This document shows, piece by piece, positions 4,386 through 63,783 of a stretch of DNA of 64,000 bases. How positions within the stretch are numbered: position 1 is the stretch's first letter; each line of letters begins with the position of its first letter. The DNA is taken from the NCBI GenBank assembly GCA_029882975.1, contig JAOUJW010000022.1, forward strand, positions 20,743-84,742, in the 5' to 3' direction. This stretch comes from Gammaproteobacteria bacterium (lineage in GTDB: Bacteria > Pseudomonadota > Gammaproteobacteria > SZUA-152). The notes under the pieces are model-generated. The model was given only the letters and a program-made list of their open reading frames with translations, did no database searches and was not told where the DNA came from. The position numbers and the translations under genes are program-made.

Positions 4386-4460
4386 GGCATACAATGGGCT
4401 CATCAACGAGACTTTAAGGTTGGATTCGGAGTCGCTTGTGAAAGGAGAGAGAGCTTCTGT

Positions 4461-4785: not shown

Positions 4786-5067
4786 GGACGGCTAAGGACA
4801 GTTAAGTTATGTGAATATTCACATACACTCTATTTCTCGTTGCTGTATTTCCCATCGATAGTAGAATCTATTCCAATAACGCAGTTCGTCGAATTGGTCA
4901 ATATTTGATCAGTTGGTTCAGGCCTGAACTTAATTGGGTCAAGACTTGAAAGGGTCACGCCCAGGTCCGTCACTTGGCACAAGAATAAATCCGGCGGTCC
5001 CAGGCGAAATTCAATAATCGAAGATTGAACAGCCCTGTAACTGGTTTTAGGGTGAAGGAAAGCTAGA

Positions 5068-6882: not shown

Positions 6883-6915
6883 TCTAAGGATCTGGTTTTA
6901 CTGCGGTAACTAAAA

Positions 6916-45937: not shown

Positions 45938-47293
45938 CTAATCACTCGATGAATTCATCTGTTTCATTAAGCGAGTCACCATAAATCCCATAACCAGTAA
46001 CACCACCACCAGAATGCCCCATAATATCACTTTTTTGTAGCTCTTCGGCGGCGGTGGTGTTTCCAGTTTACCATCACCACCCAAGGCCTCAGGGGCGTTC
46101 AATGTTAAAGGCGTTACGGTTAGATCATGGCCATTTTCAATTTGTTCCGGTATGCGGGGGGGCGATACAATGGAGCCCGCGCGGCCAAAGGCGATGGTAT
46201 AAACTCCCGTTTCACTGCTTAACAGTCGCACAACATGAGGTTTGTAAGTAATTTCCAGTGTGGGTGCTTGATTGACAGTTTGATTGCGCTCTTCGATGTT
46301 TATTTTCCAATAGGGTGCGGTACTGTTCAGTGGTATATCGGGGGAGGTGACGGTTTTATCGGCAACGGCAAGCCGGTATATGGTGCCGCGGTGGTGTAAA
46401 TGATTAATGGTATTCGGGTCAGATCCACTGTATACACTGATTTTATAGATTGCATTGGAATCACCCGGTAACAATTTAAGGGATTGGGTTGGAAAGTACC
46501 CCCCCAATTGGTAAATATAGTTGTTGTCACCGGATTGAATCAGTCGGAGTGTCTGGGATTGAACTGTATCTGCAGTCTTGACGGACTTTTTGGCATTTTT
46601 ATTTAATTGCAGTAATCGAACCTTGTCCTGATCAAAATGAATCTTTATGTATCGTTGTAAACCGCTGACATCAACAATTTTTTGTTGCAGGGTTTGTTGA
46701 TTGTGCTCCAAGTGAAACAGTGCAGCGGAACCGACAGTACGCCAGTTAGTCAGATTTTTGCTGGTTTCAACGGTGACCACCGTTTTGGGTACTTCATCCG
46801 TGTTCCAGTTCAGCATTAAGGAATGAGATAAGATTCCACCGCTTCGTCCCAGTTTACTCTGGTCCACAATGTAGTAGGGGGCCGGTAGTTTGTTTTTGGA
46901 TTCGATATTATTGATGCTGACGATAGTGCCTGTATTGTCGCGTTTAAAATAAAGGTTCAAATTATCCGCCGGCCCATCGGCCGATTCAAACACGGGAAAA
47001 AAGTGTAAAACATGACTCGTTTCATAAGCTTGTGCCACAACCGGCGTCGGATTATGCTTAATGCTCAAGGGAACCATACCGCCAATAGGATCGAAAACCC
47101 GAAGGTCCTTTAAATCCCGGTTTTGGATATGGCTATAAATCGCGTTGTTTACGGTAAACTCGTATACCTGTCGTGCATTCAGCGGGACCTGTATCCCGTA
47201 TGCGAAATCGTTTTTACTAAGTTCCTCAGCATAGCTGTTGCCCATGAAGGGTATAGACGCGGCGGTTAGAAACAATAATCGTAGTGTGTTCAT
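45938..47293 (-). CDS. DUF3999 family secreted/membrane protein
   Basis: From ATG 47293 a 451-residue protein with signal peptide (cleavage near GNSYA), a beta-rich periplasmic body and a C-terminal membrane helix (about 423-443, VILWGILVVVLLVMGFMV). It fits DUF3999, a family regularly encoded beside DUF2339. The start overlaps the stop of the upstream DUF2339 gene by four bases (ATGA), so the two are translationally coupled. The function of the pair is unknown. An upstream extension of the frame to 47500 lies inside the other gene and is not used. Confidence 0.85.
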   Translation of the reverse strand: MNTLRLLFLTAASIPFMGNSYAEELSKNDFAYGIQVPLNARQVYEFTVNNAIYSHIQNRDLKDLRVFDPIGGMVPLSIKHNPTPVVAQAYETSHVLHFFPVFESADGPADNLNLYFKRDNTGTIVSINNIESKNKLPAPYYIVDQSKLGRSGGILSHSLMLNWNTDEVPKTVVTVETSKNLTNWRTVGSAALFHLEHNQQTLQQKIVDVSGLQRYIKIHFDQDKVRLLQLNKNAKKSVKTADTVQSQTLRLIQSGDNNYIYQLGGYFPTQSLKLLPGDSNAIYKISVYSGSDPNTINHLHHRGTIYRLAVADKTVTSPDIPLNSTAPYWKINIEERNQTVNQAPTLEITYKPHVVRLLSSETGVYTIAFGRAGSIVSPPRIPEQIENGHDLTVTPLTLNAPEALGGDGKLETPPPPKSYKKVILWGILVVVLLVMGFMVTRLMKQMNSSSD

Positions 47294-50109
47294 AAAGTAC
47301 CTTGAGTGGCTGATTCCGATCGTGGGACTGTTTTCTTTGGTGGTAAGGCGGCAAAATAACCTACGCCCAGCATCAAAAGCCCAACACCGATAAATGAGAC
47401 AATGCGTTCCACGGTTCCGACATTGGCAAGATCCAGAACAAACAACTTGAGTACCACCACGGCGATCAAACCGGCACCGGTCATCCAGACAATTCGCCAT
47501 TGCTTGCGATTCGCTAAAACCATTAAGCTGACAGCGACTACGGCCCAGAGTATGGATAAAGACATTTGTGCCAAGTCCGAACGCATTATGCCATCGGGGT
47601 TAAATGGCATGCCGGACCAATGGTGTATGGTTCGCAATAGTGCACTGTTAATCAGGATAAAGGCCAGCGCCGCCATAGCACTGCTGACCACAACCGGTGT
47701 TGGCCATGCAGTCGACAGCCGTTTTCGCTCGTGTTTTATATAAGTAAGTCCCCAGAAGCCCAGACACAGATAGCCAAACATAAAACTCAGATCCAAAGGG
47801 TTGAGGAAGGGAAAATAATCCAATGGGGCAGCATTGCCATTATGGCTGATGGATGCCAGAAAAATAAATACAAACACGTAAACGGCCAGTGGGCTGCATA
47901 CGAACTGGAAGTAGGTTTGACGGTGTTGAGCAAAGGGCCAACGGTTGCCGTTGCGAGCTTTTAGTATAGTGACCAGAGCCAGGGCAGGGATCAGTAAGAT
48001 TACCGTATCAGGCCAGCTGCTGTACATGGGTACGAATTGTTTGATCCACCAATGGGACTCTAAGCACGAGAGCAACAGTATCAGTGCCGCGCCGCTGACA
48101 TGGTGCAGTATACCCGGAGGTGATAACTCGGGGTAGTCATTGCGTTTTAACAGCCAATAAAAAACCGTTAGTGTTCCCAACCAGGCCGGTAGATTCCATT
48201 GCTCGAAGGCTCTACCATCATCCACGGCGTAGATTGCGCCTACACCTAAAAAGAGCAATATAATATGGTGCAGGCGTTGCATGTCTTGCCAGCGGTAACG
48301 ACTACCGATGGCGTAGACCAACAGAGCAGTCACACTGCCAAACAACAACAGCCAGGCCGCCGCATCCTTTATCGGTGTATGACCGTGTATCTCAAACAAG
48401 CCGGAGAAAAGCCACCACAACAAGCCCCAGGCCAGGGCGATACGATCCGTATGTTCCATATAGTATCGAATGCGGCTGTGGTTTTTAAAAATCAAATACG
48501 CGCTGAGACAACCTGCCAACGCCATTAACAGTCCGCTCACATAAGGGCTGTTCAATAACACCAGGTGGCTCTCATGATAGGCCTTGCTGATTTGTTTCAA
48601 TACAAACCAGGCGGCACCCAGCTGCAACAACAAGCCGGAAAAATAAGGTAATACCCGCCCTTGTTTAATAGCGATGTAAATAAGGGCAACCCCTTCCAGT
48701 GCCCAGGTGGCTGAGGTCCACTGGTCATCCAGGGCCAGCGGTATTGCCACGGTTCCAAATACCACACCAATGGCCAGGAAGGATTCACACAGTAGTCGTA
48801 TACCGTCTTTGCTATTGGTTTTGGCAATATACTTAAACAGTCCATAGGCCAGAAATACATAAAATACACAGGCCGCAATGGCGCTGTAAGCCAAGCCGAA
48901 TTCAATCTGTCGTACCAGGGCGTATTGCAGACCAAAGACAATAACCGGTGTACCGAAGACCAGAGTGCCGTCCACATAACCGCGCAGATTTACCGGCTGG
49001 CGCAAGGCAAACAGCACAGAGATCGCTACATAGAAAACGAAGAACAACACCAGAAAAGGTTCGGTACTGGCAAACAGCGAGTGTTGGTAGCGGAATACCC
49101 CCCAGGTCGTACCAATAACAAAGGTAAAAACAAATCCCACCAAGTTCAATGCGCGCCAGGATTTATACCAGGCGATGGCCAGTATGCCGGTATTCAACAG
49201 TGCAAAGTAGCTAAACAACATGACGTGGCTGCCGCCACCGCTGGACGTCAGTACCGGCGCAACGAAGCCTCCGGAGAAACCCAATAGGGCCAAGGCCTTT
49301 GAATCCTGTAAAACCGCCAAAGCGGCTGATAAGGCACAGGTAATCAATAAAAGGGTAAAAGCCATCCCCGGCGGGATTAAATCGTACAGTCGCATGGCGG
49401 CAAAACTGGTGAGATAAATCACCGCTACCCCGCCGCCTTGTAAAGCCAGAGAAAAGCCGGCATTTTTCAAGCGGGTGCGCCAACCTACCACTAACAAGGC
49501 CAATCCACCCAACGCTACGGCTGCCATACGCAGTTCAATGGGGACAAAACCTTGTTCTGCTGCGTATTTGACCAAAAATACCAGGCCGAAAAACAATATT
49601 ACAACGCCCACGCGAACCAGCGTGTTACCGCCGGTAAAATAATCGGTGATCCATTGCACAATGAGCGGAGTGGGTTCCGGTTTCGCATATGTGTCCGAGG
49701 GGCCTCGCGTAGGCGGTAGGCCGGGAACCGAATCCGGTTTTGGAGCAGTGGCAGGGGTTGGTGTCGATGATGAAGCTGTTACGGGTGCTGTGGATGGTTT
49801 GGGTTGCGCTGATACGGGTGCAGCCGGTTTTACCGCTTCCCTTTCGGCTTTGACCGTATCGGACATGGAAAAGTTGGTGGCAAGAGACACCGGGGGCGGA
49901 GCACGTTGTGGTTGCTCTGCTTCCTGGCGGGGTTGTAGTTTGTCACGCGCAGACAGGTATTGAACGGTACGTTTTACGTCGTTTAATTCCGAACGCAGTT
50001 TAATGACGCTGCTCAACAAATAACCGCATAGAGCTCCCAACAACAGGCCGGAAATTTTGGCGGTAACGGCGCCGATTCCTGCAAAAACCAATATAAACAA
50101 AAAAGTCAT
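47290..50109 (-). CDS. DUF2339 multi-pass membrane protein
   Basis: A 939-residue protein. It has one N-terminal helix, a coiled-coil and Pro/Ala-rich linker (about 35-140), then more than twenty membrane helices up to the end. This is the DUF2339 layout (YDTFTGGNTLVRVGVVILFF, quoted from the start of the helical part as ITDYFTGGNTLVRVGVVILF). It is coupled to the DUF3999 gene by an ATGA overlap. The family is unassigned; a role in envelope biology is inferred. The C-terminus ends in a soluble tail. Confidence 0.87.
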   Translation of the reverse strand: MTFLFILVFAGIGAVTAKISGLLLGALCGYLLSSVIKLRSELNDVKRTVQYLSARDKLQPRQEAEQPQRAPPPVSLATNFSMSDTVKAEREAVKPAAPVSAQPKPSTAPVTASSSTPTPATAPKPDSVPGLPPTRGPSDTYAKPEPTPLIVQWITDYFTGGNTLVRVGVVILFFGLVFLVKYAAEQGFVPIELRMAAVALGGLALLVVGWRTRLKNAGFSLALQGGGVAVIYLTSFAAMRLYDLIPPGMAFTLLLITCALSAALAVLQDSKALALLGFSGGFVAPVLTSSGGGSHVMLFSYFALLNTGILAIAWYKSWRALNLVGFVFTFVIGTTWGVFRYQHSLFASTEPFLVLFFVFYVAISVLFALRQPVNLRGYVDGTLVFGTPVIVFGLQYALVRQIEFGLAYSAIAACVFYVFLAYGLFKYIAKTNSKDGIRLLCESFLAIGVVFGTVAIPLALDDQWTSATWALEGVALIYIAIKQGRVLPYFSGLLLQLGAAWFVLKQISKAYHESHLVLLNSPYVSGLLMALAGCLSAYLIFKNHSRIRYYMEHTDRIALAWGLLWWLFSGLFEIHGHTPIKDAAAWLLLFGSVTALLVYAIGSRYRWQDMQRLHHIILLFLGVGAIYAVDDGRAFEQWNLPAWLGTLTVFYWLLKRNDYPELSPPGILHHVSGAALILLLSCLESHWWIKQFVPMYSSWPDTVILLIPALALVTILKARNGNRWPFAQHRQTYFQFVCSPLAVYVFVFIFLASISHNGNAAPLDYFPFLNPLDLSFMFGYLCLGFWGLTYIKHERKRLSTAWPTPVVVSSAMAALAFILINSALLRTIHHWSGMPFNPDGIMRSDLAQMSLSILWAVVAVSLMVLANRKQWRIVWMTGAGLIAVVVLKLFVLDLANVGTVERIVSFIGVGLLMLGVGYFAALPPKKTVPRSESATQGTL

Positions 50110-50820: not shown

Positions 50821-51555
50821 CTAAAACGCAGCAACCGCAATCAATACACTGGCCTCAACCCATTCAATTAACGCACCTGCGGTATCGCCGGTGCTTCCGT
50901 GGATGCGTTGCAGCATGAGAAAACGCAATAACAAAAACACCAGGGTAGTGACAAAGATCGCGACAACGCCGGTACCTAATGTGGTGACTATAAGCAAAGC
51001 CAGGACAGCTATGACAACACTCCAATTGGGCAGCGGGGAGGGGTCGGTAAGTGCGTGTCCCAAACCGGACGAACGGGCATAAGGCGTGGTGAGGAACAGA
51101 ACTGGTATGCAGGCACGGGCCAGCATGGGGGTGAACAGCAGCCACAGCCACAGGTCTTTGGCCAGCAGAATTTGCAGGGCGGAAAATTTGAGCAATAGTA
51201 CCAATACCAGAGCAATCACAGCGGCAGGGCCACAGGTGGGATCTTTCATAATGTCCAGTGTGCGTTGCTTGTCACCCAGACCGCCGATCCAGGCATCGGC
51301 GCTGTCAGCCAGACCGTCCAGGTGCAAGGCTCCGCTGAGGAATACCCAAGCTGTCAGTACCATAGCCGCACTAAGGTTGTAATCGGTTTCCAACGCAGAA
51401 AACAACGCATATAAAGGCAGTAGGCAGACGCCCAGTATCAAACCTACCAAGGGGTAGTAGGGTAAAGAGCCTCTGATGTGTCGTTCTTCTATATTGCCCT
51501 TAACGGGTACGGGCAAACGGGTAAGAAACTGCAGAGCAACCAGAAAGGAGCGCAT
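50821..51555 (-). CDS. cobS: Adenosylcobinamide-GDP ribazoletransferase
   Basis: A 244-residue polytopic membrane protein, usual size for CobS. It joins alpha-ribazole(-phosphate) to adenosylcobinamide-GDP, the last step of cobalamin assembly at the membrane. LQFLTRLPVPV at the N-terminus and HLDGLADSADAW (about residues 77-88) are the family signatures. It is the last gene of the operon, 30 bases after cobC. Confidence 0.93.
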   Translation of the reverse strand: MRSFLVALQFLTRLPVPVKGNIEERHIRGSLPYYPLVGLILGVCLLPLYALFSALETDYNLSAAMVLTAWVFLSGALHLDGLADSADAWIGGLGDKQRTLDIMKDPTCGPAAVIALVLVLLLKFSALQILLAKDLWLWLLFTPMLARACIPVLFLTTPYARSSGLGHALTDPSPLPNWSVVIAVLALLIVTTLGTGVVAIFVTTLVFLLLRFLMLQRIHGSTGDTAGALIEWVEASVLIAVAAF

Positions 51556-51585
51556 GAGCTTAGACGTGCACCGTGTACATACGCG

Positions 51586-52218
51586 TCAGCATAACACCAG
51601 TTGAGCGTCTCGATAGCCGTCGGCGGTTTGGATGTGTTTGATGCGACTGATACCGGCGAAGGGCAGGTCAATATTGTAACCTTGTTGCCAGTCTATCCCT
51701 AAAACATCACCGAGTATGGCGCGGATGGTACCGGCGTGACAAATGACCAGCAAATGTTCTCCGGAAAACTGTTCACACATGGAACGCCAGGATGTGAGTA
51801 CGCGCTGTTGAAAATGGGCGTAATCCTCACCACCTGGGGGTGGATGTTTCACCGGGTCCGTCCAAAAGTTTTTCAGTGATTCGGGATCACTATGGAAAAC
51901 TTGCTCCGTGGTTTGTCCCTCCCAGGAACCGAAGTGCATTTCCCTCAAATCCGGTTCCAGACTGAGTGGCAAACGCAGCGATTGAGTCAACTCATTGGCA
52001 AATCCGGCGCAACGACGTAAGGGTGAACTAATGACCCGTTGCCAGGGTGAGTTGGCCACTTGAGTCAATCGGCGATGCATTTGCTCCCATCCGCGTGGTG
52101 TCAGAGGGTCATCACTACTGCCCCGAAAACAGGCTCCACCTTCGGGCTCACCGTGACGCATGAGATCAATAATGGTTTCGGTATCGGTTGTTGGGTGTAA
52201 CTGAGTCACATTATTCAT
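51586..52218 (-). CDS. cobC: Alpha-ribazole phosphatase (histidine phosphatase)
   Basis: A 210-residue histidine-phosphatase-superfamily protein with the RHG triad at residues 21-23 (LMRHGEPEGG) and a second LVICHAGTIRAIL block. CobC removes phosphate from alpha-ribazole phosphate or adenosylcobalamin phosphate. Placement between cobT and cobS supports this role over a generic phosphoglycerate mutase-like activity. It is five bases after cobT. Confidence 0.9.
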   Translation of the reverse strand: MNNVTQLHPTTDTETIIDLMRHGEPEGGACFRGSSDDPLTPRGWEQMHRRLTQVANSPWQRVISSPLRRCAGFANELTQSLRLPLSLEPDLREMHFGSWEGQTTEQVFHSDPESLKNFWTDPVKHPPPGGEDYAHFQQRVLTSWRSMCEQFSGEHLLVICHAGTIRAILGDVLGIDWQQGYNIDLPFAGISRIKHIQTADGYRDAQLVLC

Positions 52219-52223
52219 TCTTT

Positions 52224-53279
52224 TTAATTCTCTTTTTCCGATACCCCGGCCTCAGCGAAAGTAGCCATATTGGCGTGTAAGGCACAGGCCAGACGCAGCA
52301 AAGGCACGGCCGTAGCAGCACCGCTGCCTTCCCCCAGGCGCATGCCCATATCCAATAAGGGTTTGGCATCCAGGGCTTCCACAATATGGCGATGGCCCGG
52401 CTCGGCGGAGCGGTGTGCATAGAGGAACCATTGGGACGCACCGGGGCAAATGGCTTGGGCCAACAATGCAGCAACACTGCTGATAAAACCATCCACCAGA
52501 ACGGGAGTGCCGGTGTGGGCACAGGAAATAAACGCTCCGGTCATGGCGGCGATTTCAAACCCACCCAGGCAGCGCAGTACTTGCAAGGGATCATTCAATG
52601 CCGATTGGTGTAATTGTAAGGCTTGATTGATCACTTTGATTTTATGTTGTACACCGGAATCATCCAGCCCGGTGCCGGGTCCGGCTAATTCAGCGGCGTC
52701 CTGGTTTAATAAAGCACAAGCGACGGCTGCGGCAGCGGTGGTGTTGCCGATACCCATTTCCCCGCCGATGAACAAGTGGGTTTTTTCCAGAGCGGCTTTC
52801 TCTGCCGCCTGTCGTCCCGTATTTAGAGCGGCGAATAATTGTTGCTCGCTCATGGCAGCTTCCTGGGTGAAGTCTTGGGTGCCGGGGCCCAATCGGGCCT
52901 GTTGTACCAGGGGTAGATCGCCGGGGTCTACCGCCGTGCCCAGATTAATCACTTGCAAAGAAGCACCGATACTTTTGGCCAATACATTAATGGCAGCTCC
53001 ACCGCGGGCAAAGTTGCGAACCATTTCTGCAGTGACGGCCTGGGGAAAAGCCGACACCCCTTGTGCAGCCACACCATGGTCTCCGGCAAACACTGTAATG
53101 TGTACCGTATCGATTTGCGGTAACTCCCGGCCCTGTAGACCTGCCAATTGGATAGCAACGGTTTCCAAACGACCAAGAGCACCGGGAGGCTTGGTAAGCC
53201 GGCCTTGCCGATCCCTGGCCAGGTTTTGCATTTCTGTGTTTACGCTTGCACAGGGTACGTTGAGCCAATCAGCAGTCAT
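52224..53279 (-). CDS. cobT: Nicotinate-nucleotide-dimethylbenzimidazole phosphoribosyltransferase
   Basis: A 351-residue protein, the usual CobT size. It activates the lower ligand base as alpha-ribazole phosphate. Landmarks are GRLTKPPGALGRLE near residue 26, FAGDHGVAAQGVSAFP (65-80), GGEMGIGNTTAAAA and Glu317 in LGEGSGAA, the expected catalytic base by family numbering. It is 16 bases after cobU. Confidence 0.95.
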   Translation of the reverse strand: MTADWLNVPCASVNTEMQNLARDRQGRLTKPPGALGRLETVAIQLAGLQGRELPQIDTVHITVFAGDHGVAAQGVSAFPQAVTAEMVRNFARGGAAINVLAKSIGASLQVINLGTAVDPGDLPLVQQARLGPGTQDFTQEAAMSEQQLFAALNTGRQAAEKAALEKTHLFIGGEMGIGNTTAAAAVACALLNQDAAELAGPGTGLDDSGVQHKIKVINQALQLHQSALNDPLQVLRCLGGFEIAAMTGAFISCAHTGTPVLVDGFISSVAALLAQAICPGASQWFLYAHRSAEPGHRHIVEALDAKPLLDMGMRLGEGSGAATAVPLLRLACALHANMATFAEAGVSEKEN

Positions 53280-53295
53280 ACTTCTATCCTTTCGG

Positions 53296-53850
53296 TTAAA
53301 TTGCTCTTTTTAAATATGTGGGCAGACCGGCTACGGTTAACACCACCTCATCACACAGGGCGGCCAGTTGCTGGTGCAGTTTCCCCATGGTATCGCAGTA
53401 CTGACGTGCCAAGACATTATCGGGAACCAAACCCAAACCCGATTCGGTACTGACAAAAACAATAGCACCCGGCAGCTGTGGTAGGGCTTGCAGCAAGGAC
53501 TCTGTTTCCTGTTGATGTAATTGCGCATTGTTTTTTAATAACAAGTTGGTCTGCCAAAGGCTTAAACAGTCCACTAAAACACAGCGATCTGCCTGGCAAC
53601 TTTGTTCCAGGGCAGCGCTTAAGTACAGAGGTTCTTCTGTTAAACGCCAATCGTGCGGGCGTCGCTGCCGATGGGTCTTAATTCGCTGCGCCATTTCATC
53701 GTCTAAGGCGGTGGCTGTGGCAATATAAGTAACGCTCAAACCCAATTGTTGTGCTTGTTGTTGTACCAGAAGTTCAGCAAACTGGCTTTTCCCGGAACGT
53801 ATTCCACCCAGGACTAACTGTTTGATGGCGGGTGTGAATGCCGGTTTCAT
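53296..53850 (-). CDS. cobU: Adenosylcobinamide kinase/guanylyltransferase
   Basis: A 184-residue P-loop protein (GGIRSGKS, residues 15-22) of normal CobU length. It phosphorylates adenosylcobinamide and attaches GMP. The [11 protein letters not shown] segment carries the histidine expected to take the GMP. Its ATG overlaps the cobQ stop by four bases, so it is coupled to cobQ. Confidence 0.94.
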
Positions 53851-55421
53851 AATTGGGTTTCCATTTCCAGTTTGCTGGATTGCAGCAACTGTTCAATCGC
53901 CTGCATGTCCAAGTGTTGTTCCACCGCATTAGCCAAACGGTCAATGTCCTGTTCACGCCGCGCTTCATAATCCCAGCTATGGTCGAGGCGTAACCCGGCC
54001 CATTGCAGCAAGGCAGCGCAGGCTTGAGGATGATCGAATGCGCCATGCAGATAAGTACCGAGAATACGGTCGTCATCGGAACGGGCGCCGTCGGTCTGAG
54101 CCGAATCACCAACATCACGGTTATCCAAAACCACGACAGGCTTTTGCAGGGCATCGCCGCTACTGACTCCTGCGTGAATTTCATAACCCTTAATTCGGTA
54201 CTGCTTGTCATCAGTGTTTTCAGCGCCATTTTTATCAGCGCCAACATTGTCTTCAGCGCCATTGTTGAGTGATAACCATCCCGTAACATTACGTAATTGT
54301 TTTTGCTGAGTCAGCACAGTTTGCAATTGCAACAGGTCCAGGCCCTTGACGTAGGCTTGGGAGCTTTCCACCCCATGAGGGTCCAGTATGCTCTGGCCCA
54401 GCATTTGAAAACCGCCACAGATCCCCATGAGTTTTCCGCCATAACGCAGATGTTTATGAATAGCCTGCTCCCAACCGTGTTGGCGCAGCCAGTTTAAATC
54501 AGAGACGACGCTTTTACTGCCGGGTAATATAATTAAATCAGCGGCGGGTATATTTTGTTTGGCATCGACAAAACGCAGATCCACTTGAGAATGCAGGCGC
54601 AAGGCATCAAAGTCGGTGTGATTGCTCAAGCGGGGTAAGGCGGGCACAATGACGCGCAAAGGATCGGATACCTGTGCGACTCCGTCACGACGGGACAGGC
54701 TGTCTTCGCCTTCCAGATGCAAATCCTGTAAATAGGGTAATACCCCCTGTGTGTGTATGCCGGTTTCATGGTGTAACCAGTCCAGGCCCGGTTGTAACAA
54801 AGTGCTGTCACCGCGAAACCGATTGATCACAAACCCCTTAACCCGTCGGCGTTCTTTTTCGGATAGCAAGGACAGGGTGCCTACCAATTGGGCGAAGACA
54901 CCACCGCGGTCAATATCGGCTACAATCCATACCGGACAATTTACGGCTTCGGCGAAGCCCATATTGGCGATATCTTTAGCGCGTAAATTGATTTCCGCCG
55001 GGCTGCCTGCGCCTTCCACCAAAATCACATCGTATTGTTGTTGTAAGCGGTGGTACGACTGTAATACCGCCTGCATGGCTATGGGTTTATAGCGGTGATA
55101 ATCACGGGCATTCATATTGGCAACCGCGTGTCCCTGTACAATAACCTGGGAGCCCGTATCGGTGTTAGGTTTGAGCAATACCGGGTTCATATCCGTGTGC
55201 GCTGCAATACCCGCCGCTTGGGCCTGCAGAGCCTGGGCGCGGCCGATTTCGCCGCCGTCAACAGTCACAGCGGAATTTAAAGCCATGTTTTGTGGCTTGA
55301 AGGGTGCCACTTTAACGCCACGCCGGGCCAGTACCCGGCACAAACCGGTGACGACAGCGCTTTTACCGGCATCTGAAGTGGTGCCCTGAATCATGAGGCT
55401 GCCTCGTAATGGTTTAGGCAT
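53847..55421 (-). CDS. cobQ: Cobyric acid synthase
   Basis: From ATG 55421, which overlaps the cobD stop by one base (TAATG), a 524-residue protein. It amidates adenosylcobyrinic acid a,c-diamide at four positions using glutamine. The ATP site is GTTSDAGKS (about 13-21) and the glutamine-amidotransferase Cys335 lies in [11 protein letters not shown]. Near residue 400 there is a low-complexity Gly-Ala-Asp/Glu-Asn insert encoded by repeated TCAGCGCCA on the + strand. An ATG-like start at 55487 is less likely because it would lie inside cobD. Confidence 0.94.
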
Positions 55422-56545
55422 TACACCGCCTCCGCCTGTGGGCTGGATAAGAGTAAAGATTGCAAAGCCCGTTGCAGTCGCATCCATTGTGCTTCATTGG
55501 CGGGTAAGCCAAAACGTAAACTGGCCGGTTGTTCAAACAAACGTATCCAGATTCCCTGTTGCGCCAGTTGCGTCCGTACCGTTTCTGCGTGCGGTGTACG
55601 GATCCATTGGAACAGGGCCGTACCGTTGGTGGGGTGTAACACGTTTTGCCGTGACACATCGTGTAACGGCGAATCCAGTAACGACGTACTCAGTAACAGT
55701 GCGTTTTGTAACAACCCTTGCAAACGCTGCGATTGAATGGGCAAGGTCTGGCGAGTGCTGTCATGCCATGCCGTGTCCAGCAAGGCTTGCTTAGCCACTT
55801 GGCGGGCAGGGCCGTTTACGGTCCAGGGGCCCAGCATTTCCTGCAGGGTATGGAGTAATTCATATTGCGCCATGACAAAGCCCACGCGGGCACCGGCCAG
55901 GCCAAAAAACTTGCCCAAAGATCGCAAAACAATTAAACCGGGTAAACTTGCGTGGGCGCACAGGCTAAGTTCCGGTGTGCAATCCATGAAAGCTTCGTCC
56001 ACTACTAACCAGCCGCCTTGTTGTGCCAATTGTGCATGCCACGCTAACAATTGTTGTGGAGAAACGGTTTCGCCCGTAGGGTTGTTGGGGTTAACCAACA
56101 CGAGACAACTGAGTTGAGGCAGTTGCGCGGCAATCTCTTCAGAGTTCAAGGCAAGGACTTCAAACCCGGCCTGGTGCCAGACATGAGCGTGTTCGGCATA
56201 GCTGGGATGGATTAGGCCGATTTTTTGTTGGTTTGCAGCTAAGCTGCCGGAGAAACGCAAGCGCAGAGCCGGTAAAAGTTGAATGGCTGCTTGAGTACCG
56301 GCTACCGGTAATACCTGTTCGCAGCCATAATAGGACTGTGCGGCTGCAACCAAGCCGTCGTCGTCTTCGGGCAATCGGGCCCAGTGGCGTGAATCAATGG
56401 CGGGTACGGGCCAGGCATTGGGGTTGAGTCCGGTGGATAAATCCAACCATTGACTCAATTCAATGTCGTATTGTTTTGCTGCTTGCCGTAGGCGGCCGCC
56501 GTGCTCAAGCAAAACTGCCTCCCGCGGTCGTCCAATATAAGCCAA
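55421..56545 (-). CDS. cobD: Threonine-phosphate decarboxylase
   Basis: A 374-residue fold-type I PLP enzyme of the CobD/CobC type. It makes aminopropanol phosphate, used by CbiB to form cobinamide phosphate. PLP contacts are NPNNPTG (152-158), VVDEAFMD (181-188) and the Schiff-base Lys212 in [14 protein letters not shown]. Its 5' end overlaps cbiB by 41 bases, a longer overlap than others in the operon, and its stop overlaps cobQ. Confidence 0.92.
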
Positions 56546-57485
56546 AGAGCAAGATCGCCGCCAGGAGAAGCAGTATCGGCAGCAACCATATCAACAAGGC
56601 TCGAGCAAACAAATTGATGGCGGCCTTGATGTCTTGTGCCTGAGGTTCGTTACCGTTGCCCAGCTGTGGTCGTTGTTGTAACTGACCGTGGTAATAGGCC
56701 GGTCCACCCAATTGCAATGCGAGGGCACCGGCACCTGCGGCCATCACCGGACCGGCATTCGGGCTTTTCCATTGGGGTGATTGATGGCGCCAGCAGTGCA
56801 GGGCATTGCCAAACTTGCCTGCTATGGCATAACTTAATGCGGTAAGACGGGCGGGTATAAAGTTGAGCACATCATCCAAACGCGCGGCGGCCCAACCGAA
56901 ATGGAGAAAGCGTTCTGTTTTATAGCCCCACATGGCATCCAAGGTATTGCTTAACCGATAAAACACGACGCCCGGTGCACCTGCCAAGATAAACCAGAAT
57001 AGCGGGGCGAACACGGCGTCGTTACCGTTTTCCAGGGTGGACTCAATGGTGGCCTTAGCCATGTCCTTTGTGTCCATATTGGCGGTATCCCGGCTCACGA
57101 GAAATGATGTGTGTATACGAGCTTGCTCCAACTCACCTTGTTGTAAGGCCTTGCTGACGTTCAGGGCATGTTCCACCAGGCTGCGACTGCCCAAGGCCAA
57201 ATACAGGCACAAAACCGCCAGGGCGGTTTCAGCGGAGTGGGAAAAAGGGGAACTCAACAGCCAGTCGATGATCACCGCCGGAACCAGGGTCAACAGCAAA
57301 ACCGCCAATGCACCGCGCCGGCGGCTTTCGCTACGGTTTTTATTGAGCCAGGCTTCGGTTTTCTGTGCCAGGCGGCCAAAGCCCACCAAAGGATGGGCCC
57401 GGCGCGGTTCGCCCAACAATCCGTCCAATGCCACGGCCAGCAGTATACAGAGGCAGAGAGTGCTGATGCTTAGACCCGATAACAC
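56505..57485 (-). CDS. cbiB: Adenosylcobinamide-phosphate synthase
   Basis: A 326-residue integral membrane protein of the CbiB family; it joins aminopropanol (phosphate) to adenosylcobyric acid. Signatures are GLLGEPRRAHPLVGFGRLA near residue 24 and AKATIESTLENGNDAVFAPL near 145. The start is GTG at 57485 with no strong ribosome site; no better in-frame start is seen nearby. It follows the ferredoxin gene by 30 bases. Confidence 0.93.
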   Translation of the reverse strand: MLSGLSISTLCLCILLAVALDGLLGEPRRAHPLVGFGRLAQKTEAWLNKNRSESRRRGALAVLLLTLVPAVIIDWLLSSPFSHSAETALAVLCLYLALGSRSLVEHALNVSKALQQGELEQARIHTSFLVSRDTANMDTKDMAKATIESTLENGNDAVFAPLFWFILAGAPGVVFYRLSNTLDAMWGYKTERFLHFGWAAARLDDVLNFIPARLTALSYAIAGKFGNALHCWRHQSPQWKSPNAGPVMAAGAGALALQLGGPAYYHGQLQQRPQLGNGNEPQAQDIKAAINLFARALLIWLLPILLLLAAILLFGLYWTTAGGSFA

Positions 57486-57515: not shown

Positions 57516-57893
57516 TTATGACGCGGAAGCGCATTCCGGGCCGCGATGATAAATCAAGTCTTGCACGGGTTTGCCGCCCACCAGGTGTTCCTTAATAATG
57601 CGGTCCAGATTGGCTTCGGTCACGTTGTAATACCAGATCCCGTCGGGCTGGATACACATAATGGGGCCGGACTTGCAGGTGGCAAAGCAGTGGGTGCGGG
57701 TACGCTTTACCCGTAGATCGCCCTTATCGATACCGGCTGCTTTGAACTTTTCCCCTAACAGTTCAAACAATTCCTGGGACTCGCCGTCTTCGGTGCAGCG
57801 TGGACCCACGCATACCAGCATGTGTCGGGCATAGTCCATCATCTTAGGTTTTTCCAGGGTCGCCGCATCCACGGCGCTATCCAAATCACTCAT
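57516..57893 (-). CDS. Thioredoxin-like 2Fe-2S ferredoxin
   Basis: A 125-residue protein with Cys28, Cys33, Cys69 and Cys73 placed as in thioredoxin-like 2Fe-2S ferredoxins (HMLVCVGPRC and HCFATCKSGPIM), followed by PDGIWYYNV. Similar genes occur in cobalamin operons and have been called CbiW in some genomes; this may be an electron donor to a redox step in corrin synthesis. Its ATG overlaps the cbiH stop by one base (TAATG), so coupling to cbiH is likely. Confidence 0.85.
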   Translation of the reverse strand: MSDLDSAVDAATLEKPKMMDYARHMLVCVGPRCTEDGESQELFELLGEKFKAAGIDKGDLRVKRTRTHCFATCKSGPIMCIQPDGIWYYNVTEANLDRIIKEHLVGGKPVQDLIYHRGPECASAS

Positions 57894-59269
57894 TAGGCTA
57901 TCTCCAGTTCTTCTGTGTTACAGATTTCGGTGTCGGAATAGGACTGCCACAACTGCTCAAACTGTTGCAGTGCTTGCGGTTCAAATTGTCCTTTCTCGCG
58001 TATCAAAGAGACGTTGAACACGCTTTCATCCTTGGTATCGGTGAATACCACACTGCGCAGACTGTCGCCGCGGCTCACCAGCCAGGCACTATGTACCTGG
58101 GTCCAATTAATATGTAAATGAAAATGATCGTTTTCGATATTGAGCCAGTTACCGCGGGACTTAAAATCCGCCGCGTCAATCATAAGTTCAGAGACGGCAC
58201 CGGCATCGCTGCGCACCACCGCGCGGATGCGGCCCCATTGTTTGGCGCTGTCGATGGCTTGCTGCAATTCATTAGGGGGTAGTGCCAGGGCCTTGAATTC
58301 ACCGGCGGGGCTATCCGCATCTGCTTCGCTGATGGCACTGAGTATGTGTCCCATGGGCATATCAAAATGTCGGGCGATGTCACGCAGGGAATGGGCTTTA
58401 CTGTCGCATAAATATTGGCGTACGCAGCTTTTCCAACCACCCAAACCCATGCTCAGGGAGCGGCCACGTTTTTCATTTTCCAAAGTAGATCCGGTGATAT
58501 CGTCGTATTTATTCGCATATCCCCGCGGCGTAATCATCAGGCCCTGGTCCATATAGGTGCTGCTGTTGCCAATGAGTACGGTGGTCAGCATGCCGATTTT
58601 GCATTCGGTCATTTTGTCCAGAGTGACCATTTGAATATCCTGCAAGTCCCGGTAGGCGGATTTGACAATGGCCACGGGTGTGTTGGCACTGCGATATTGC
58701 ATAATGATACGCTGGGCCTCAATAATATGTTGAGTACGGCGGCCGCTTTTGGGGTTGTACAAGGCAATGACAAAGTCACTTTTGGCGGCGGCGTCCAGCC
58801 GTTTGGCAATCACCGGCCAGGGCGTGAGCAAATCGGACAAGGAGATAGAGCAAAAATCGTGAGTCAAAGGCGCGCCCACCAGCGAGGCACAGGCGGACAG
58901 AGCCGTGCTGCCGGGAATGACTTCCACCTGAATACCACTGTCCGGGTTTTCAGGAACCGTCCAACCGGATTTTAAAAGCACTTCATACGTAGGGCCGGCC
59001 ATGCCGTAAACGCCAATATCACCGGAGGATATCAGCGCGACGGTTTTGCCCAGTTTGGCCTGTTCGTAAGCCTCGACACAACGGTCGATCTCCTCGGTCA
59101 TGCCTTTGCGTACCACTTCCTTGCCATCCAGCAAATGTTTTACCAGATTAATATAAGTGGAGTAGCCGATGACCACATCCGATTGCTCGATGGCTTGCAG
59201 CGCTCTTTGAGTCATGTGTTCCTGGGCGCCGGGGCCAAAACCCACCAGGAAAATTTTTCCATTCTTCAT
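57893..59269 (-). CDS. cbiH: Cobalt-precorrin-3B C17-methyltransferase fused to a ChuX/HutX-like domain
   Basis: From ATG 59269 (overlapping the previous stop as ATGA) a 458-residue protein, about twice the usual CbiH length (around 240-250). Residues 1-258 are a standard CbiH/CobJ methyltransferase (VGFGPGAQEHMT, ALISSGDIGVYGMAGP, IALYNPKSGRR), which methylates C17 and contracts the ring. Residues about 277-450 are extra. They follow the pattern of heme-utilisation ChuX/HutX/HemS-type domains: a helical start (SLRDIARHFDMP), QWGRIRAVVRSDAGAVSEL, NWLNIENDHFHLHIN, then SAWLVSRG and SVVFTDTKDESVFNVSLI. The domain call is by eye, from memory of the family. A 2Fe-2S ferredoxin gene follows at once. 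Confidence 0.85.
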   Translation of the reverse strand: MKNGKIFLVGFGPGAQEHMTQRALQAIEQSDVVIGYSTYINLVKHLLDGKEVVRKGMTEEIDRCVEAYEQAKLGKTVALISSGDIGVYGMAGPTYEVLLKSGWTVPENPDSGIQVEVIPGSTALSACASLVGAPLTHDFCSISLSDLLTPWPVIAKRLDAAAKSDFVIALYNPKSGRRTQHIIEAQRIIMQYRSANTPVAIVKSAYRDLQDIQMVTLDKMTECKIGMLTTVLIGNSSTYMDQGLMITPRGYANKYDDITGSTLENEKRGRSLSMGLGGWKSCVRQYLCDSKAHSLRDIARHFDMPMGHILSAISEADADSPAGEFKALALPPNELQQAIDSAKQWGRIRAVVRSDAGAVSELMIDAADFKSRGNWLNIENDHFHLHINWTQVHSAWLVSRGDSLRSVVFTDTKDESVFNVSLIREKGQFEPQALQQFEQLWQSYSDTEICNTEELEIA

Positions 59270-59706
59270 GCTAAAGTACCTTTTTTTGAATCTGCGTGTG
59301 CTGTTTTGCATCGGACGATGGAAACGGTGGCATTTTTTTCGTCGTCACCACGGTATTTGTGTTTTTCCACCAGTAAATCGTTCATATCGGTTTTCGCCGC
59401 CAGTAAGGCTGCGGCCTCAGCAACGGCTGGAGTGCCCATGTACTTGAGTACGGTCTCAGACGGGTTGGGTACGGGCACCTGGGCCAACTCTTGCGCGCTG
59501 AAAAACTGTAAAGGCCAATTGTGTTGTTGCGCCAATTGCAGCAAGGCGGGCTCATCATTTTTTTTGTCAATGGTCGCCAGGGCACTGACGTGATCCAGGT
59601 CCGCGTCAATTTGCTGCAAAGCTTGTTGCACAGCCGTTTGCAGGGTTTGCAACGAAGTACCTCGATCGCAACCCATGCCCAGAATGAGTTTGTTTGTTCC
59701 GGTCAC
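59266..59706 (-). CDS. CbiG C-terminal-domain protein (CobE-like)
   Basis: From GTG 59706 a 146-residue protein matching the CbiG C-terminal / CobE domain (LILGMGCDRGTSLQTLQTAV). In many genomes this domain is the end of CbiG; here it is a separate gene whose start overlaps the upstream cbiG stop as GTGA. An upstream extension of the frame to 59796 lies inside cbiG and is not used. It probably works with CbiG in the C-ring opening step. Confidence 0.85.
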   Translation of the reverse strand: MTGTNKLILGMGCDRGTSLQTLQTAVQQALQQIDADLDHVSALATIDKKNDEPALLQLAQQHNWPLQFFSAQELAQVPVPNPSETVLKYMGTPAVAEAAALLAAKTDMNDLLVEKHKYRGDDEKNATVSIVRCKTAHADSKKGTLA

Positions 59707-60476
59707 GAGGGCTGACCTTGGGGTGGGCGGTAGACCACCAGGCGTTCCTGTAATTGCTGCCACAACTGCTCCGGTATATCCCGTTCGGTAATCCATAACA
59801 CGGCTTTGTGTTGTTCCAGATCCACGGCGTCAAAGGAATCAAACAAATGGATGTTCTTGGGAAGTGGTGTGGGGCGTGTCCACCAGTTGCGGCTTCCATG
59901 TTCCTGAACTACGGCTATGGCTTCTTCATTAACGACATGAGCGGAGACGCGAGTGATGTTGATCTTGGGCGCTTCCACTTTCCAGCCCAGTTCCCTTCCT
60001 AAAATATCCACAGGAATGGTTTTGCCCACGTCCGAGGCCGTGGTGACCACCGGCGTTGCTTCCAGGATCTGAGCCAGTTTTTCTGCGTACGCATTGGCAC
60101 CGCCCACGTGCCCTGACAAGACCGGTATGACAAACTGAGCAGCATCATCCACGACTAAAACGCCGGGATCTTCATCCTTGGATTTTAAATGAGGGGCAAT
60201 CAAACGTATTACCGCGCCCAGGGAAACAAAAAATACAATTTGATCGAAATCTTGGAAAAGGGGGCCGATTTGATCCCGCAAAGCACCTTCGTAGACATTG
60301 ACCTTGTTCGGGATAGAATTCATGGTCTCTGCAAACTTGGCTGAGACAACCACATCCGCCTCGCTTATGCTGGGTGCCAGCGCCGCGACCTGTGCAGCGC
60401 CGTGTTTGGTGATCGCCACCAGGGCCACACGGACGGTTGTTTCACCATGGGTTTGACTCGGTTCGGTTTGTGTCAT
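59703..60476 (-). CDS. cbiG: Cobalt-precorrin-5A hydrolase CbiG, N-terminal and middle domains
   Basis: From ATG 60476, overlapping the cbiL stop as ATGA, a 257-residue protein. It has the N-terminal CbiG domain (VALVAITKHGAAQVAAL, then FFVSLGAVIRLIAPHLKSK and VLSGHVGGANAYAEKLA) and a middle domain, but not the C-terminal one, which is the next gene. CbiG opens the ring lactone and releases acetaldehyde in the oxygen-independent pathway. Its presence with cbiD argues for that pathway. Confidence 0.9.
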   Translation of the reverse strand: MTQTEPSQTHGETTVRVALVAITKHGAAQVAALAPSISEADVVVSAKFAETMNSIPNKVNVYEGALRDQIGPLFQDFDQIVFFVSLGAVIRLIAPHLKSKDEDPGVLVVDDAAQFVIPVLSGHVGGANAYAEKLAQILEATPVVTTASDVGKTIPVDILGRELGWKVEAPKINITRVSAHVVNEEAIAVVQEHGSRNWWTRPTPLPKNIHLFDSFDAVDLEQHKAVLWITERDIPEQLWQQLQERLVVYRPPQGQPS

Positions 60477-61288
60477 GCACTGATCTCCACGGTTTCGGAT
60501 TGGATTTCGGGTTTGTTTTGAGTTTTGGGTTTGCGACAACCTCGTTGCACCGGGTGTCGTTGCCGATGGGGATTGCGAACCAGCATCAAGGACAGATAGT
60601 TGACCTTTTGGCCTTTCAAAGTGGTGATGTCCCTGACCACCCGTTCTTCCGGTGTGCCTACTTTTTCGATAAAACGACATTGGCTAGCAATTTGTTGTTG
60701 TTGCAACAAATCGATAATGTCATCCAACAGTGGTTTCACTTTTAACAGTACCAGGGTGTCAAATTGGGGTAACAGGGAGGCAATGGTTTCAACGCCGTAT
60801 CCTGCGGGAATTATCGCCACCGTGTCGTCCACGTCCGCCAAGGGCATATCCAAGGCAGCGGCAGCCGCGTGAAAGGAAGGCACGCCGGCCACAGTTTCTA
60901 TGCGGACCGCGTCGTCCAAAGCGCGTACGCTACGGGATAAGTGGCCGAAGGTGGAGTATGTGGAAGCATCTCCTTCCACCAGAAACACCACATCCTGACC
61001 TTGTTGCAAGAAAGTCAGAACCGCTTGCGCCGCTTGCAACCAGTATTTACTCAGAATTTCCACATCATGGGTCATGGGGAATATGAGTGGTGATTGCTGC
61101 GTCGGCAGTTCCAGCCCGGCACGCAGGGCGATGGCCAGGGCGTAACTGTCACTGTTTTTTTTGCGTATCGGATACGTCCATACAGTGTCTTTGCGATTCA
61201 ACAGTTCCCAAGCGCGACGGGTGATTAAGCCCGGATCACCAGGGCCTAAGGAGACACCGTACAGTTTGCCTAATGACTTTTCAGTCAT
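60473..61288 (-). CDS. cbiL: Cobalt-precorrin-2 C20-methyltransferase
   Basis: From ATG 61288 a 271-residue protein, preceded by GGAGG within the end of cobL. The opening LYGVSLGPGDPGLITRRAW and the PIRKKNSDSYALAIA stretch are specific for precorrin-2 C20-methyltransferase among the related tetrapyrrole methylases. It methylates C20 using SAM. A Lys/Arg-rich tail after about residue 235 is longer than usual. It overlaps cobL by eight bases. Confidence 0.92.
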   Translation of the reverse strand: MTEKSLGKLYGVSLGPGDPGLITRRAWELLNRKDTVWTYPIRKKNSDSYALAIALRAGLELPTQQSPLIFPMTHDVEILSKYWLQAAQAVLTFLQQGQDVVFLVEGDASTYSTFGHLSRSVRALDDAVRIETVAGVPSFHAAAAALDMPLADVDDTVAIIPAGYGVETIASLLPQFDTLVLLKVKPLLDDIIDLLQQQQIASQCRFIEKVGTPEERVVRDITTLKGQKVNYLSLMLVRNPHRQRHPVQRGCRKPKTQNKPEIQSETVEISA

Positions 61289-62654
61289 GGTTGCCTCCCA
61301 TGTTATGGTCTTCGGTATGCCTGGGTTGGGCGCAAACAATCCAAACCGGGTTTTCAGCAGCCAGTCGATGCATATGCAGTATGGGTTGGCTGCGGTTGGC
61401 CTGTAGTTGTGTTACATCCCATTGGACTTGCGCTTTGCTTAAGGCATCAGTCGCTGTGCTCAGGTTCTCCAAGGTCACAAAGTTCATAACCAGGGTACCG
61501 TCAGGGCGTAATCGTTGCAGGCATAATTCAATAAGCTGTTGCAACTCACCACCGGAACCACCAATAAAAACTGCATCAGGGTCAGGCCAGTTGTGTAAAG
61601 GCTGTGGTGCTTTGTCATGTGTCAGTTGATAGTTCAGAATGCCCTGTTCGCGTTGGTTGTGTACGGCGATGGCGGCGTCATCCGGGTTTTTCTCCACTGC
61701 ATACACATAACCTTGTGAACACAGGCGGGCTGCCTCCAGCCCCACAGAACCGGACCCGGCGCCGATATCCCAAACAATGGAATCGCGGCGTAACTGCATC
61801 CGTGCCAGGGATACGGCGCGGACTTCGCGTTTGGTAATTAAGCCTTTATCCGGTTTACGCTGTTTGTAGACACTGTCTTGCAAACCGAACAGTGCTTTGT
61901 GTGTTTGTTCCACGCGTCGTTGCAGAATCACTATATTGGGATCGACAAACTGCATGGATACCGCTTGTTCCGCACTTAAACCTCTGTACACGCGCTGTTG
62001 TTTACCGAGTAAATCTTCGGTGACATGTAAATCCCAACACGCTTGTTGTTGTTCTTCCAGTATCAATCGGGCAATACGGTCCGGGGAATTGTCCGGGCTG
62101 GTGTAGACGGCAATCAAGTCGTGTTGTTGTATCGCTTGTAAAACGGCAAACAGACCGTGCTGTGGGCCTTTGTTGCTCTTTTCCCATTCACCGGCATCTT
62201 TACTGTGCACCGAACAAATATGTGCGTGTTGCCAGGCCAAACCCAGTTCAGCGAAAGCCAATTGATGCGCGCTGAGGTTGGGGTGGATGTGGCAACGCTG
62301 TGTTCCCAGTTTGGAAACCAGATATTTACCGATACCGTGACACAATGGGTCGCCACTGGCCAGTACCACCACCGTTTGCTGCTGTGCCAACGCATCCTCA
62401 ATCCACTGGGGCAGCATACGCAGTTGTCCGCTTAAGTCTTTTTGCGTGGAGTTTGGATGAAACAGCCCTTTGAGCAATTCCAGGGTACGTCGGCCGCCGA
62501 TGATCAAGTCCGCCTGTTGAATTAACGTAATGGCGGTTTCACTTAAGCTCCGTTCCGCGTTTTCCAAAACGCCGATAATGTGGCAGCATTGTGGTGCAAT
62601 CTCATGGCTGTGTGAGTGGGGACGGTCTGTCTCTGGTGTTGGCGTTTCAAGCAC
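61281..62654 (-). CDS. cobL: Precorrin-6Y C5,15-methyltransferase (CbiE-CbiT fusion)
   Basis: A 457-residue fusion. The CbiE-type methyltransferase is N-terminal (about 20-235, LIGGRRTLELLKG, VVLASGDPLCHGIG); the CbiT-type part follows (about 250-440) with DIGAGSGSVGLEAARL as the SAM site and DAVFIGGSGGEL. It methylates C5 and C15 and decarboxylates the side chain. The start is GTG 62654, overlapping the cbiD stop by eight bases. Named cobL for the fused form. Confidence 0.93.
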   Translation of the reverse strand: MLETPTPETDRPHSHSHEIAPQCCHIIGVLENAERSLSETAITLIQQADLIIGGRRTLELLKGLFHPNSTQKDLSGQLRMLPQWIEDALAQQQTVVVLASGDPLCHGIGKYLVSKLGTQRCHIHPNLSAHQLAFAELGLAWQHAHICSVHSKDAGEWEKSNKGPQHGLFAVLQAIQQHDLIAVYTSPDNSPDRIARLILEEQQQACWDLHVTEDLLGKQQRVYRGLSAEQAVSMQFVDPNIVILQRRVEQTHKALFGLQDSVYKQRKPDKGLITKREVRAVSLARMQLRRDSIVWDIGAGSGSVGLEAARLCSQGYVYAVEKNPDDAAIAVHNQREQGILNYQLTHDKAPQPLHNWPDPDAVFIGGSGGELQQLIELCLQRLRPDGTLVMNFVTLENLSTATDALSKAQVQWDVTQLQANRSQPILHMHRLAAENPVWIVCAQPRHTEDHNMGGNHD

Positions 62655-63783
62655 GGTCGTCTCCCGGACTTTGTTTTAAGTCGGATTCGTCCGGTTTGAT
62701 TTCGGCCAACTTATTACCTTCGAAATCGCACACCAGTACGGTGATATCAAATTGTTGTGGATAACGACTGCTGAGGGTCTTGATGACTTTTTGGCCCAGT
62801 GCTTGATAGAACTCCTGTACCAGTCCCAGTTCCTCCATGCGCTCACCGGCGTAGCGCGCCGTCTCGTTTTCGCGTATATCCTGGCAGACTTGTTCCGGCG
62901 CACCGATGCCGGCCGCCAGATCGGCCAATAAATCTGTATTTACCGCGTTGCGGTTGGCGTGGGTAATGGTTTCACCTTGGGCCATTTTGGTGAGCTTGCC
63001 CACCATGCCGCCAATGATCACATGGGGCAGTTTCTCTTTGACTACGGTATCCAAAGCATACTTAAGAAAATCGCCCATTTGCACAAAACACGCGGGTGCC
63101 AAATGGGGTAGTTCCCTGATGACGAACTTTTCCGTGCGCCCGCCGGTGGTGAGTACCACGGTGTCTTGACCCTGATTGGCGGCCACTTGTATGCCTTGTA
63201 TAACGCTGTCGCGAAAAGCGGCGGTGGAGTAGGGATGAACAATACCGGTGGTGCCCAATATGGATATACCGCCGAGAATTCCCAAACGCGCGTTAAGGGT
63301 TTTTTTAGCCATTTCCTCGCCACCCGGTACCGAGATCGTGACTTCCAGGCCTTTGCGTTGCAACAGACCGGCCCCGGCCAAACGTATATTTTCCTCTATG
63401 TTTTTTCGCGGAACCGGATTGATGGCGGGTCCGCCCACTTCCAGGCCCAGTCCGGCCATGGTCACTGTGCCCACACCTTCACCACCTTTAATGTCAACAT
63501 GGTCTTTGAGGTCGGTTATACGAACATCGGCCGTTAAGGGAGCTTTATCGGTACAGTCCGGATCATCACCCGCGTCTTTAATGACCACAGCATGGGCGCT
63601 GGACTTATCGCAGCGACCGTCGTTAACGCTAAAGCTCACCGCTTGCCCATTGGGAAGCAGGCATTCCACTTTCTCGGGCACACTGCCGTGTAATAGCCCC
63701 AACACAGCGGCACGGGCGGCAGCAGCGGAACAGGCTCCGGTGGTATATCCTTTGCGAGTACCTTTGGGTTTTTTCTGCATCAT
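62647..63783 (-). CDS. cbiD: Cobalt-precorrin-5B C1-methyltransferase
   Basis: A 378-residue CbiD of usual length, with GYTTGACSAAAARAAVLGL near the N-terminus and the GGRTEKFVIRELPHLAP block. CbiD methylates C1 and marks the oxygen-independent pathway. The start is one of two adjacent ATGs (63783 or 63780); a ribosome site is weak. It begins 10 bases after the cbiC stop. Confidence 0.94.
   Translation of the reverse strand: MMQKKPKGTRKGYTTGACSAAAARAAVLGLLHGSVPEKVECLLPNGQAVSFSVNDGRCDKSSAHAVVIKDAGDDPDCTDKAPLTADVRITDLKDHVDIKGGEGVGTVTMAGLGLEVGGPAINPVPRKNIEENIRLAGAGLLQRKGLEVTISVPGGEEMAKKTLNARLGILGGISILGTTGIVHPYSTAAFRDSVIQGIQVAANQGQDTVVLTTGGRTEKFVIRELPHLAPACFVQMGDFLKYALDTVVKEKLPHVIIGGMVGKLTKMAQGETITHANRNAVNTDLLADLAAGIGAPEQVCQDIRENETARYAGERMEELGLVQEFYQALGQKVIKTLSSRYPQQFDITVLVCDFEGNKLAEIKPDESDLKQSPGDDRA

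Follow-up and report, generated by a model that had tools for sequence, protein, structure and literature searches.

A CbiH protein with a C-terminal ChuX/HutX-family domain in the cobalamin operon of a gammaproteobacterium

Background

The step that characterises B12 (cobalamin) synthesis is ring contraction. The ring-contraction enzyme considered here, CbiH, is encoded together with a C-terminal ChuX/HutX-family domain in a 64,000-nucleotide stretch of contig JAOUJW010000022.1 from a Gammaproteobacteria bacterium (assembly GCA_029882975.1), referred to below as the window. There is no settled account of how the cobalt-early route, which is sensitive to oxygen, operates in aerobes. The cobalt-early CbiH60 of the aerobic bacterium Priestia (Bacillus) megaterium is greatly extended at its C-terminus by a nitrite/sulfite-reductase-like part with a 4Fe-4S centre. 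The window protein is likewise a cobalt-early CbiH with a big C-terminal extension, however this is of the ChuX type and its beta domain contains no cysteine. The CbiH60 name occurs in a reference title of PMC7242693 and in a table and a reference of PMC8390425. In the cobalt-early route, CbiL produces cobalt-factor III and CbiH turns cobalt-factor III into cobalt-precorrin-4 (PMC7242693).

The ChuX/HutX cytosolic heme carriers (PF06228; PDB 2ovi, 6u9j, and 5exv) have in common with the window domain the fold with one repeat, the N-terminal helices, and the second histidine of an H-x-H motif that is present in full in HutX. The heme-degrading proteins HemS, ChuS, and PhuS (PF05171) share the superfamily fold, however the HemS and ChuS rows show two matched stretches (two repeats) and the window protein shows one. 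The LFE_1968-like family (PF22684; PDB 3na2 from Leptospirillum, which is taken here to be a member) and Ava_4353 (PDB 3fm2) were solved as separate proteins with no assigned function, while the window domain is fused. In contrast to the ChuX/HutX carriers, the window domain is joined to CbiH inside a cobalamin operon. HutX passes its heme on to two enzymes, HutZ and HutW, according to PMC12670364.

No description of a CbiH-ChuX fusion was found in searches of the open-licence PubMed Central literature, and one elsewhere is possible. The same literature yielded no paper on LFE_1968 and none that treats DUF3209 together with cobalamin. The first-pass annotation had regarded the fusion as unfamiliar. 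This holds for the literature searched, but not for genomes, where the fusion is common (21 of 37 loci from the class of the window).

Identity of the C-terminal domain

The database entry for the window protein (P0001) has 458 amino acids (aa) and begins at the second methionine of the 472-aa open reading frame (ORF), therefore the true start is probably near 59269. Domain ranges are given here for the 472-aa ORF, and the residue numbers H384, H386, and R349 for the 458-aa protein. At either length the protein is nearly double the usual size, the CobJ/CbiH model having 239 positions, which bears out the first-pass annotation on this point. The N-terminal part belongs to the CobJ/CbiH family, scoring 324.3 bits against TIGR01466 (cut-off 246.35).

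The search of the C-terminal part against PF06228 and PF05171 and the structural comparison, both proposed in the first-pass annotation, gave matches. PF06228 (ChuX_HutX) matches ORF residues 327–454 with 47.9 bits (cut-off 25, E value 1.6e-12), and PF05171 (HemS) matches residues 327–455 with 36.6 bits (cut-off 24, E value 5e-9). In the predicted structure the ChuX/HutX fold spans the whole domain, with three helices ahead of the beta domain. The closest solved structures found with Foldseek are the heme-binding ChuX and HutX, at 15–18% identity. Together with residue conservation, these results support the ChuX/HutX/HemS-like assignment made earlier by eye. The motifs quoted for it are present in the protein as HLH (58112–58120) and QWGRIRAVVR (58211–58240, minus strand).

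The whole HutX model, TIGR04108, scores 26.9 and 30.5 bits against a cut-off of 110. The 26.9-bit match starts at residue 297 and so takes in the helices that precede the beta domain, however the score is far under the equivalog cut-off. From sequence, the C-terminal part therefore belongs to the ChuX/HutX family without being a HutX orthologue. PF22684 also stays below its cut-off of 27, with 19.0 bits for the whole protein and 21.3 bits for the domain alone. Past the methylase domain, the Pfam search of the whole protein matched only ChuX, HemS, and LFE_1968-type families, each of the ChuX and HemS models on a single stretch. That search gave no CbiH60-type nitrite/sulfite-reductase-like Fe-S extension.

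Conserved residues

A homologue search with ORF residues 265–472 gave 250 proteins at an E value of 1e-3 or less, the window protein included, of which 120 were listed. By a profile built from 78 of these proteins, the domain is present in 120 of 120, which is not a rate, as the search used the domain itself. Four have fewer than 430 aa, of which three are partial and lack the methylase domain. The conservation of the fusion among homologues excludes a chance joining or an assembly chimera.

Among the 120 listed homologues, the position of H384 is histidine in 119 and that of H386 in 118, with both retained in 117, and R349 is arginine in all of them. The second histidine falls on position 98 of ChuX (chain 2ovi), as counted from the alignment, a residue that has reportedly been studied as a heme ligand. 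The window domain thus has histidine at the ChuX position-98 / HutX HGH site. The H-x-H was considered as a signature of a cobalamin branch alone and was rejected, since HutX has the same pair.

Distribution and history of the fusion

The sample comprised 369 genomes from the class of the window, 40 of which have a CobJ/CbiH over the cut-off. The loci of 36 of these and of the window were examined with a home-built domain profile. The fused domain was found in 21 loci (20 and the window) and was absent from 16. The loci of G079, G220, and G289 lie outside the 37 and have CbiH open frames of 260–283 aa, too short for the domain. These counts use a profile from 78 listed homologues, which is biased to the fused family and could miss other kinds; PF06228 alone, at an E value of 0.01 or less, detects 17 of the 21 domains and misses four. 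The fusion is common and not unique. Its carriers include Methylobacter luteus, a Bathymodiolus methanotrophic symbiont, Ferrovum myxofaciens, and a Mariprofundaceae bacterium, among which are methanotrophic and, in Ferrovum, iron-oxidising lifestyles. Within the order of the window, the full-length fusion profile had a match of some kind in 22 of 24 genomes, with many of these being weak matches to other methyltransferases. The match is near full length in 10 genomes, and in one it covers positions 1–285 only.

A second set of 80 loci was picked by similarity to the query. The fusion is clear in 10 (L033–L042), split across two frames in one (L086), and represented by a degenerate domain without the H-x-H in one (L061), while 31 loci lack an extension of this kind or are truncated. 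The other 37 (L043–L060, L062–L079, and L093) stop after a helical stub. In these helix-only forms the linker and HutX-type helices are kept and the protein ends before the beta domain, often with a Glu/Ala-rich tail. The stub was recognised by a second home-built profile in 19 of the 37, mostly weakly (12–40 bits), and in the others by reading the C-terminal tails. The titles of these loci are mostly betaproteobacterial, with L063 titled just 'Proteobacteria'.

A quick tree without bootstrap was made from 78 CbiH catalytic domains, and in it the fused and helix-only forms group together (42 rows, SH-aLRT 88, not starred). The fusion is a clustered lineage trait. Three state changes among fused, helix-only, and none are needed on this tree. 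From these we infer that the beta domain was acquired once and lost at least twice (in the main Betaproteobacteria and in Accumulibacter), where the direction is a matter of interpretation since change counts cannot separate gain from loss.

Some further arrangements were seen. The Methylobacter luteus genome (G393, also the source of L038) has a second CbiH-ChuX with a ferredoxin on a different contig (L174). A CbiH-ChuX-BluB triple fusion is present in P0079 and at L129:5478–7589, and a CysG-BluB fusion at L120:10434–12542.

Standalone ChuX-like genes among cobalamin genes

PF06228 is found at an E value of 0.01 or less in 7 of 148 Nitrospirota genomes. In all seven the ChuX-like gene lies between a FAD-binding oxidoreductase gene, itself after DUF3209, and cbiD. 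The same arrangement is present in L082, L170, and, by eye, L092. A search with the Nitrospirota-type protein gave 115 proteins, and those that have a name are called hypothetical or uncharacterized. The H-x-H is present in 113 of the 115, and the other two have gaps there. The DUF3209, FAD, and ChuX-like set looks like an unexplained redox module. The Nitrospirota operons (L082 and L085, at about 0.3–3.1 kb; L169, L170, and L176–L181) run from CbiX with a ferredoxin-like sequence through DUF3209, the FAD-binding oxidoreductase, and the ChuX-like gene to cbiD.

A second standalone type sits between cbiG and cobQ in both loci observed, L087 and L090. L087 is titled Myxococcota, and L090 is titled Pseudomonadota but is next to L087 in the tree. 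The search with this type gave 42 proteins, all with the H-x-H. Comparison with the fused domain by hhalign gave a probability of 98.9%, and the two standalone types compared with each other gave 88.7%.

The ferredoxin neighbour

The gene following cbiH-chuX had been described as a 2Fe-2S ferredoxin, and PF01257 agrees by a narrow margin (see Table 1). All NCBIfam ferredoxin matches of this gene are below their cut-offs. The suggested redox partnership with the ChuX domain did not hold up. A ferredoxin adjoins cbiH in 14 of 21 fused loci, but also in 29 of the 37 in which CbiH has no beta domain. One of the seven fused loci without an adjacent ferredoxin, L117, stops some 0.9 kb past cbiH. A ferredoxin-like sequence is also found in one open frame with CbiX (L082, L085, L087, L090, L092, L094, L095, and L098). 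Since it occurs beside beta-less CbiH and in frame with CbiX, the ferredoxin is tied to the pathway and not to the ChuX domain, and a private redox partner of the domain is rejected.

The suggestion that the domain helps to oxidise a corrin intermediate fared no better. CobG-like substrate oxidation is rejected for the window genome, in which CobG has no match at an E value of 1e-20 or less. The 41-genome searches covered the 21 fused genomes and 20 others (19 and G213, the CobJ/CbiH of which is below the cut-off), and CobG is over its cut-off in 0 of 21 and 5 of 20, respectively.

Possible role of the domain

The fusion is real and conserved, and the identity of its domain is well supported; a carrier role is plausible on the sequence evidence. 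The ChuX domain may be a built-in tetrapyrrole carrier that binds a cobalt-tetrapyrrole intermediate through the H-x-H and hands it to or from the CbiH active site, for which the chances appear about even. Its ligand would be cobalt-factor III, as it enters, or cobalt-precorrin-4, as it leaves, with the cobalt coordinated by the conserved H-x-H. The domain would then present the first to the ring-contraction site or take the second from it. The benefit might be that an air-sensitive cobalt intermediate is kept sequestered in oxygen-respiring cells using the cobalt-early route. We infer all three of these: what is bound, in which direction it is passed on, and what the cell gains. Holding or handing over a tetrapyrrole, as had been suggested, fits with the conservation of both histidines, with the location in a cobalamin operon, and with the window genome having no PF06228 or PF05171 match besides CbiH-ChuX.

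Several observations weigh against a carrier. The clearest is that 37 related loci keep the same operon with no beta domain, from which it follows that CbiH works without it. In the 13 helix-only genomes searched for PF06228, 11 had no match, and the other two (G402 and G404) had nothing but paired HemS-like matches in one frame. One or both histidines are lost in 3 of the 120 listed homologues and, among 31 aligned rows, in L125, L127, and the degenerate L061. The H-x-H is shared with HutX, so the pair itself is no pointer to cobalt. The orientation of the domains is uncertain in the full-length predicted structure (predicted template modelling score, pTM, 0.57). The Nitrospirota type is weakly related to the fused domain (hhalign probability 18%, E value 0.0013), and PF06228 is over its cut-off in two of the seven genomes matched. 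As to oxygen, COX1-family oxidases do not separate the groups, being found in all 21 fused genomes and in 18 of the 20 others, and BluB is not over its cut-off in the window genome. BluB, an enzyme that uses O2, is over the cut-off in 18 of 21 fused and 11 of 20 other genomes. A strict rule that the fusion occurs only in aerobes is not supported by these counts, and helix-only forms include aerobic genera. The oxygen argument is suggestive only.

It is unlikely, though not negligibly so, that the domain is structural, stabilising a CbiH dimer or docking the next enzyme with its pocket empty. ChuX/HutX proteins are dimeric, the helical stub stays where the beta domain is missing, and some members have lost the histidines, all of which would suit such a role. 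The near-strict conservation of two histidines and one arginine, however, exceeds the needs of a scaffold.

Binding of heme in place of a B12 intermediate, which would make the domain a heme-dependent switch of CbiH or its electron relay, appears somewhat less probable still. The nearest solved structures bind heme and the HutX histidine pair is retained. Against this, the window genome has no further PF06228 or PF05171 match, PF06228 outside CbiH was not found in 20 of the 21 fused genomes (PF05171 was not searched there), and the standalone relatives checked lie among cobalamin genes. That the H-x-H binds free cobalt, the domain supplying or buffering it for the pathway, is very improbable: these operons have CbiX genes and a histidine pair can bind divalent metal, but HutX has that pair too, with no cobalt role known to us, and cobalt is inserted before the CbiH step (PMC7242693), making CbiH the wrong place.

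The carrier reading can be extended, more tentatively, to an overlooked B12 branch of the ChuX/HutX carriers. This possible cobalt-tetrapyrrole chaperone would be fused to CbiH in Pseudomonadota and free in Nitrospirota/Myxococcota-type bacteria, and would enable the 'anaerobic' cobalt-early pathway in oxygen-respiring cells. Some entries named 'putative heme iron utilization protein' or 'ChuX/HutX family heme-like substrate-binding protein' may then be B12 proteins. If the ring-contraction enzyme does have a conserved carrier domain, this would give a concrete residue-level handle on intermediate channelling.

The cobalamin operon

The features of the window are given in Table 1. The gene order is cbiD, cbiE/T, cbiL, cbiG (two genes), cbiH-chuX, ferredoxin, cbiB, cobD-like aminotransferase, cobQ, cobU, cobT, phosphatase, and cobS.

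Table 1. Position of cbiH-chuX, its domains, and the neighbouring cobalamin genes
Feature	Position	Strand	Remarks
cbiH-chuX fusion gene	57893..59311	minus	single uninterrupted ORF, 472 aa
CbiH/CobJ catalytic domain (TP_methylase)	58502..59263	minus	ORF residues ~17–270; PF00590 19–232, TIGR01466 20–266
Linker and HutX-type N-terminal helices	58334..58501	minus	ORF residues ~271–326; retained in helix-only CbiH forms
ChuX/HutX beta domain	57947..58333	minus	ORF residues 327–455
H-L-H, candidate axial-ligand pair	58112..58120	minus	H384/H386 of the 458-aa protein, H398/H400 of the ORF
Conserved arginine R349	58223..58225	minus	458-aa numbering; Arg in 120/120 listed homologues
Thioredoxin-like [2Fe-2S] ferredoxin	57516..57893	minus	overlaps cbiH by 1 base; PF01257 25.2 bits, cut-off 24.8
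cbiG, C-terminal part	59266..59796	minus	own ORF; PF01890
cbiG, N-terminal and middle part	59703..60680	minus	PF11760, PF11761
cbiL	60473..61339	minus	TIGR01467 220 bits, over cut-off
cbiE-cbiT	61281..62654	minus	PF00590 TP_methylase match; CbiE/CbiT names by eye
cbiD	62647..63783	minus	PF01888
cbiB	56505..57485	minus	PF03186
Other cobalamin genes: cobD-like aminotransferase, cobQ/cbiP, cobU, cobT, histidine phosphatase, cobS	50821..56545	minus	PF00155, PF07685/PF01656, PF02283, PF02277, PF00300, PF02654

The window terminates at the contig end. Another contig of the same genome (C39) starts with a partial cbiC followed by cbiX and cbiF, and has a cobalamin riboswitch (L182:5281–5596) on the same strand, upstream of cbiF, cbiX, and the partial cbiC. 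This is probably the upstream part of the window operon, past the contig break. The Rfam scan of the 64-kb window itself gave no match. The usual order in relatives is cbiF-X-C-D-ET-L-G-G-H, then ferredoxin or BluB. The CbiX of the window genome is over the PF01903 cut-off, and the presence of CbiX, CbiG, and CbiD with no CobG indicates the cobalt-early (anaerobic) pathway. A frameshift was considered for the split cbiG (59266–60680, two overlapping genes) and rejected, since most relatives with the operon have it split likewise; it is in one frame in some, e.g. L115 and L128.

Gene labels in the loci of relatives were assigned by phmmer with representative proteins. The window CbiH, CbiG, CbiL, CbiB, ferredoxin, CbiD, CobQ, CobU, CobT, and CobS were checked by profile, as were, in relatives, the CbiC of L038, DUF3209, the FAD domain, and BluB (four loci and P0079). 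The names CbiE, CbiT, and CbiF and the CbiX of L038 are partly by eye, the latter matching sirohydrochlorin-chelatase models below cut-off.

Elsewhere in the window, a DUF2339 predicted membrane protein of 939 aa (47290–50109) adjoins the cobalamin genes. Type VI secretion genes are located at 529–7977, encoding TssG, a ClpB/ClpV-like ATPase, a VgrG-like baseplate protein, and a DUF2169 protein.
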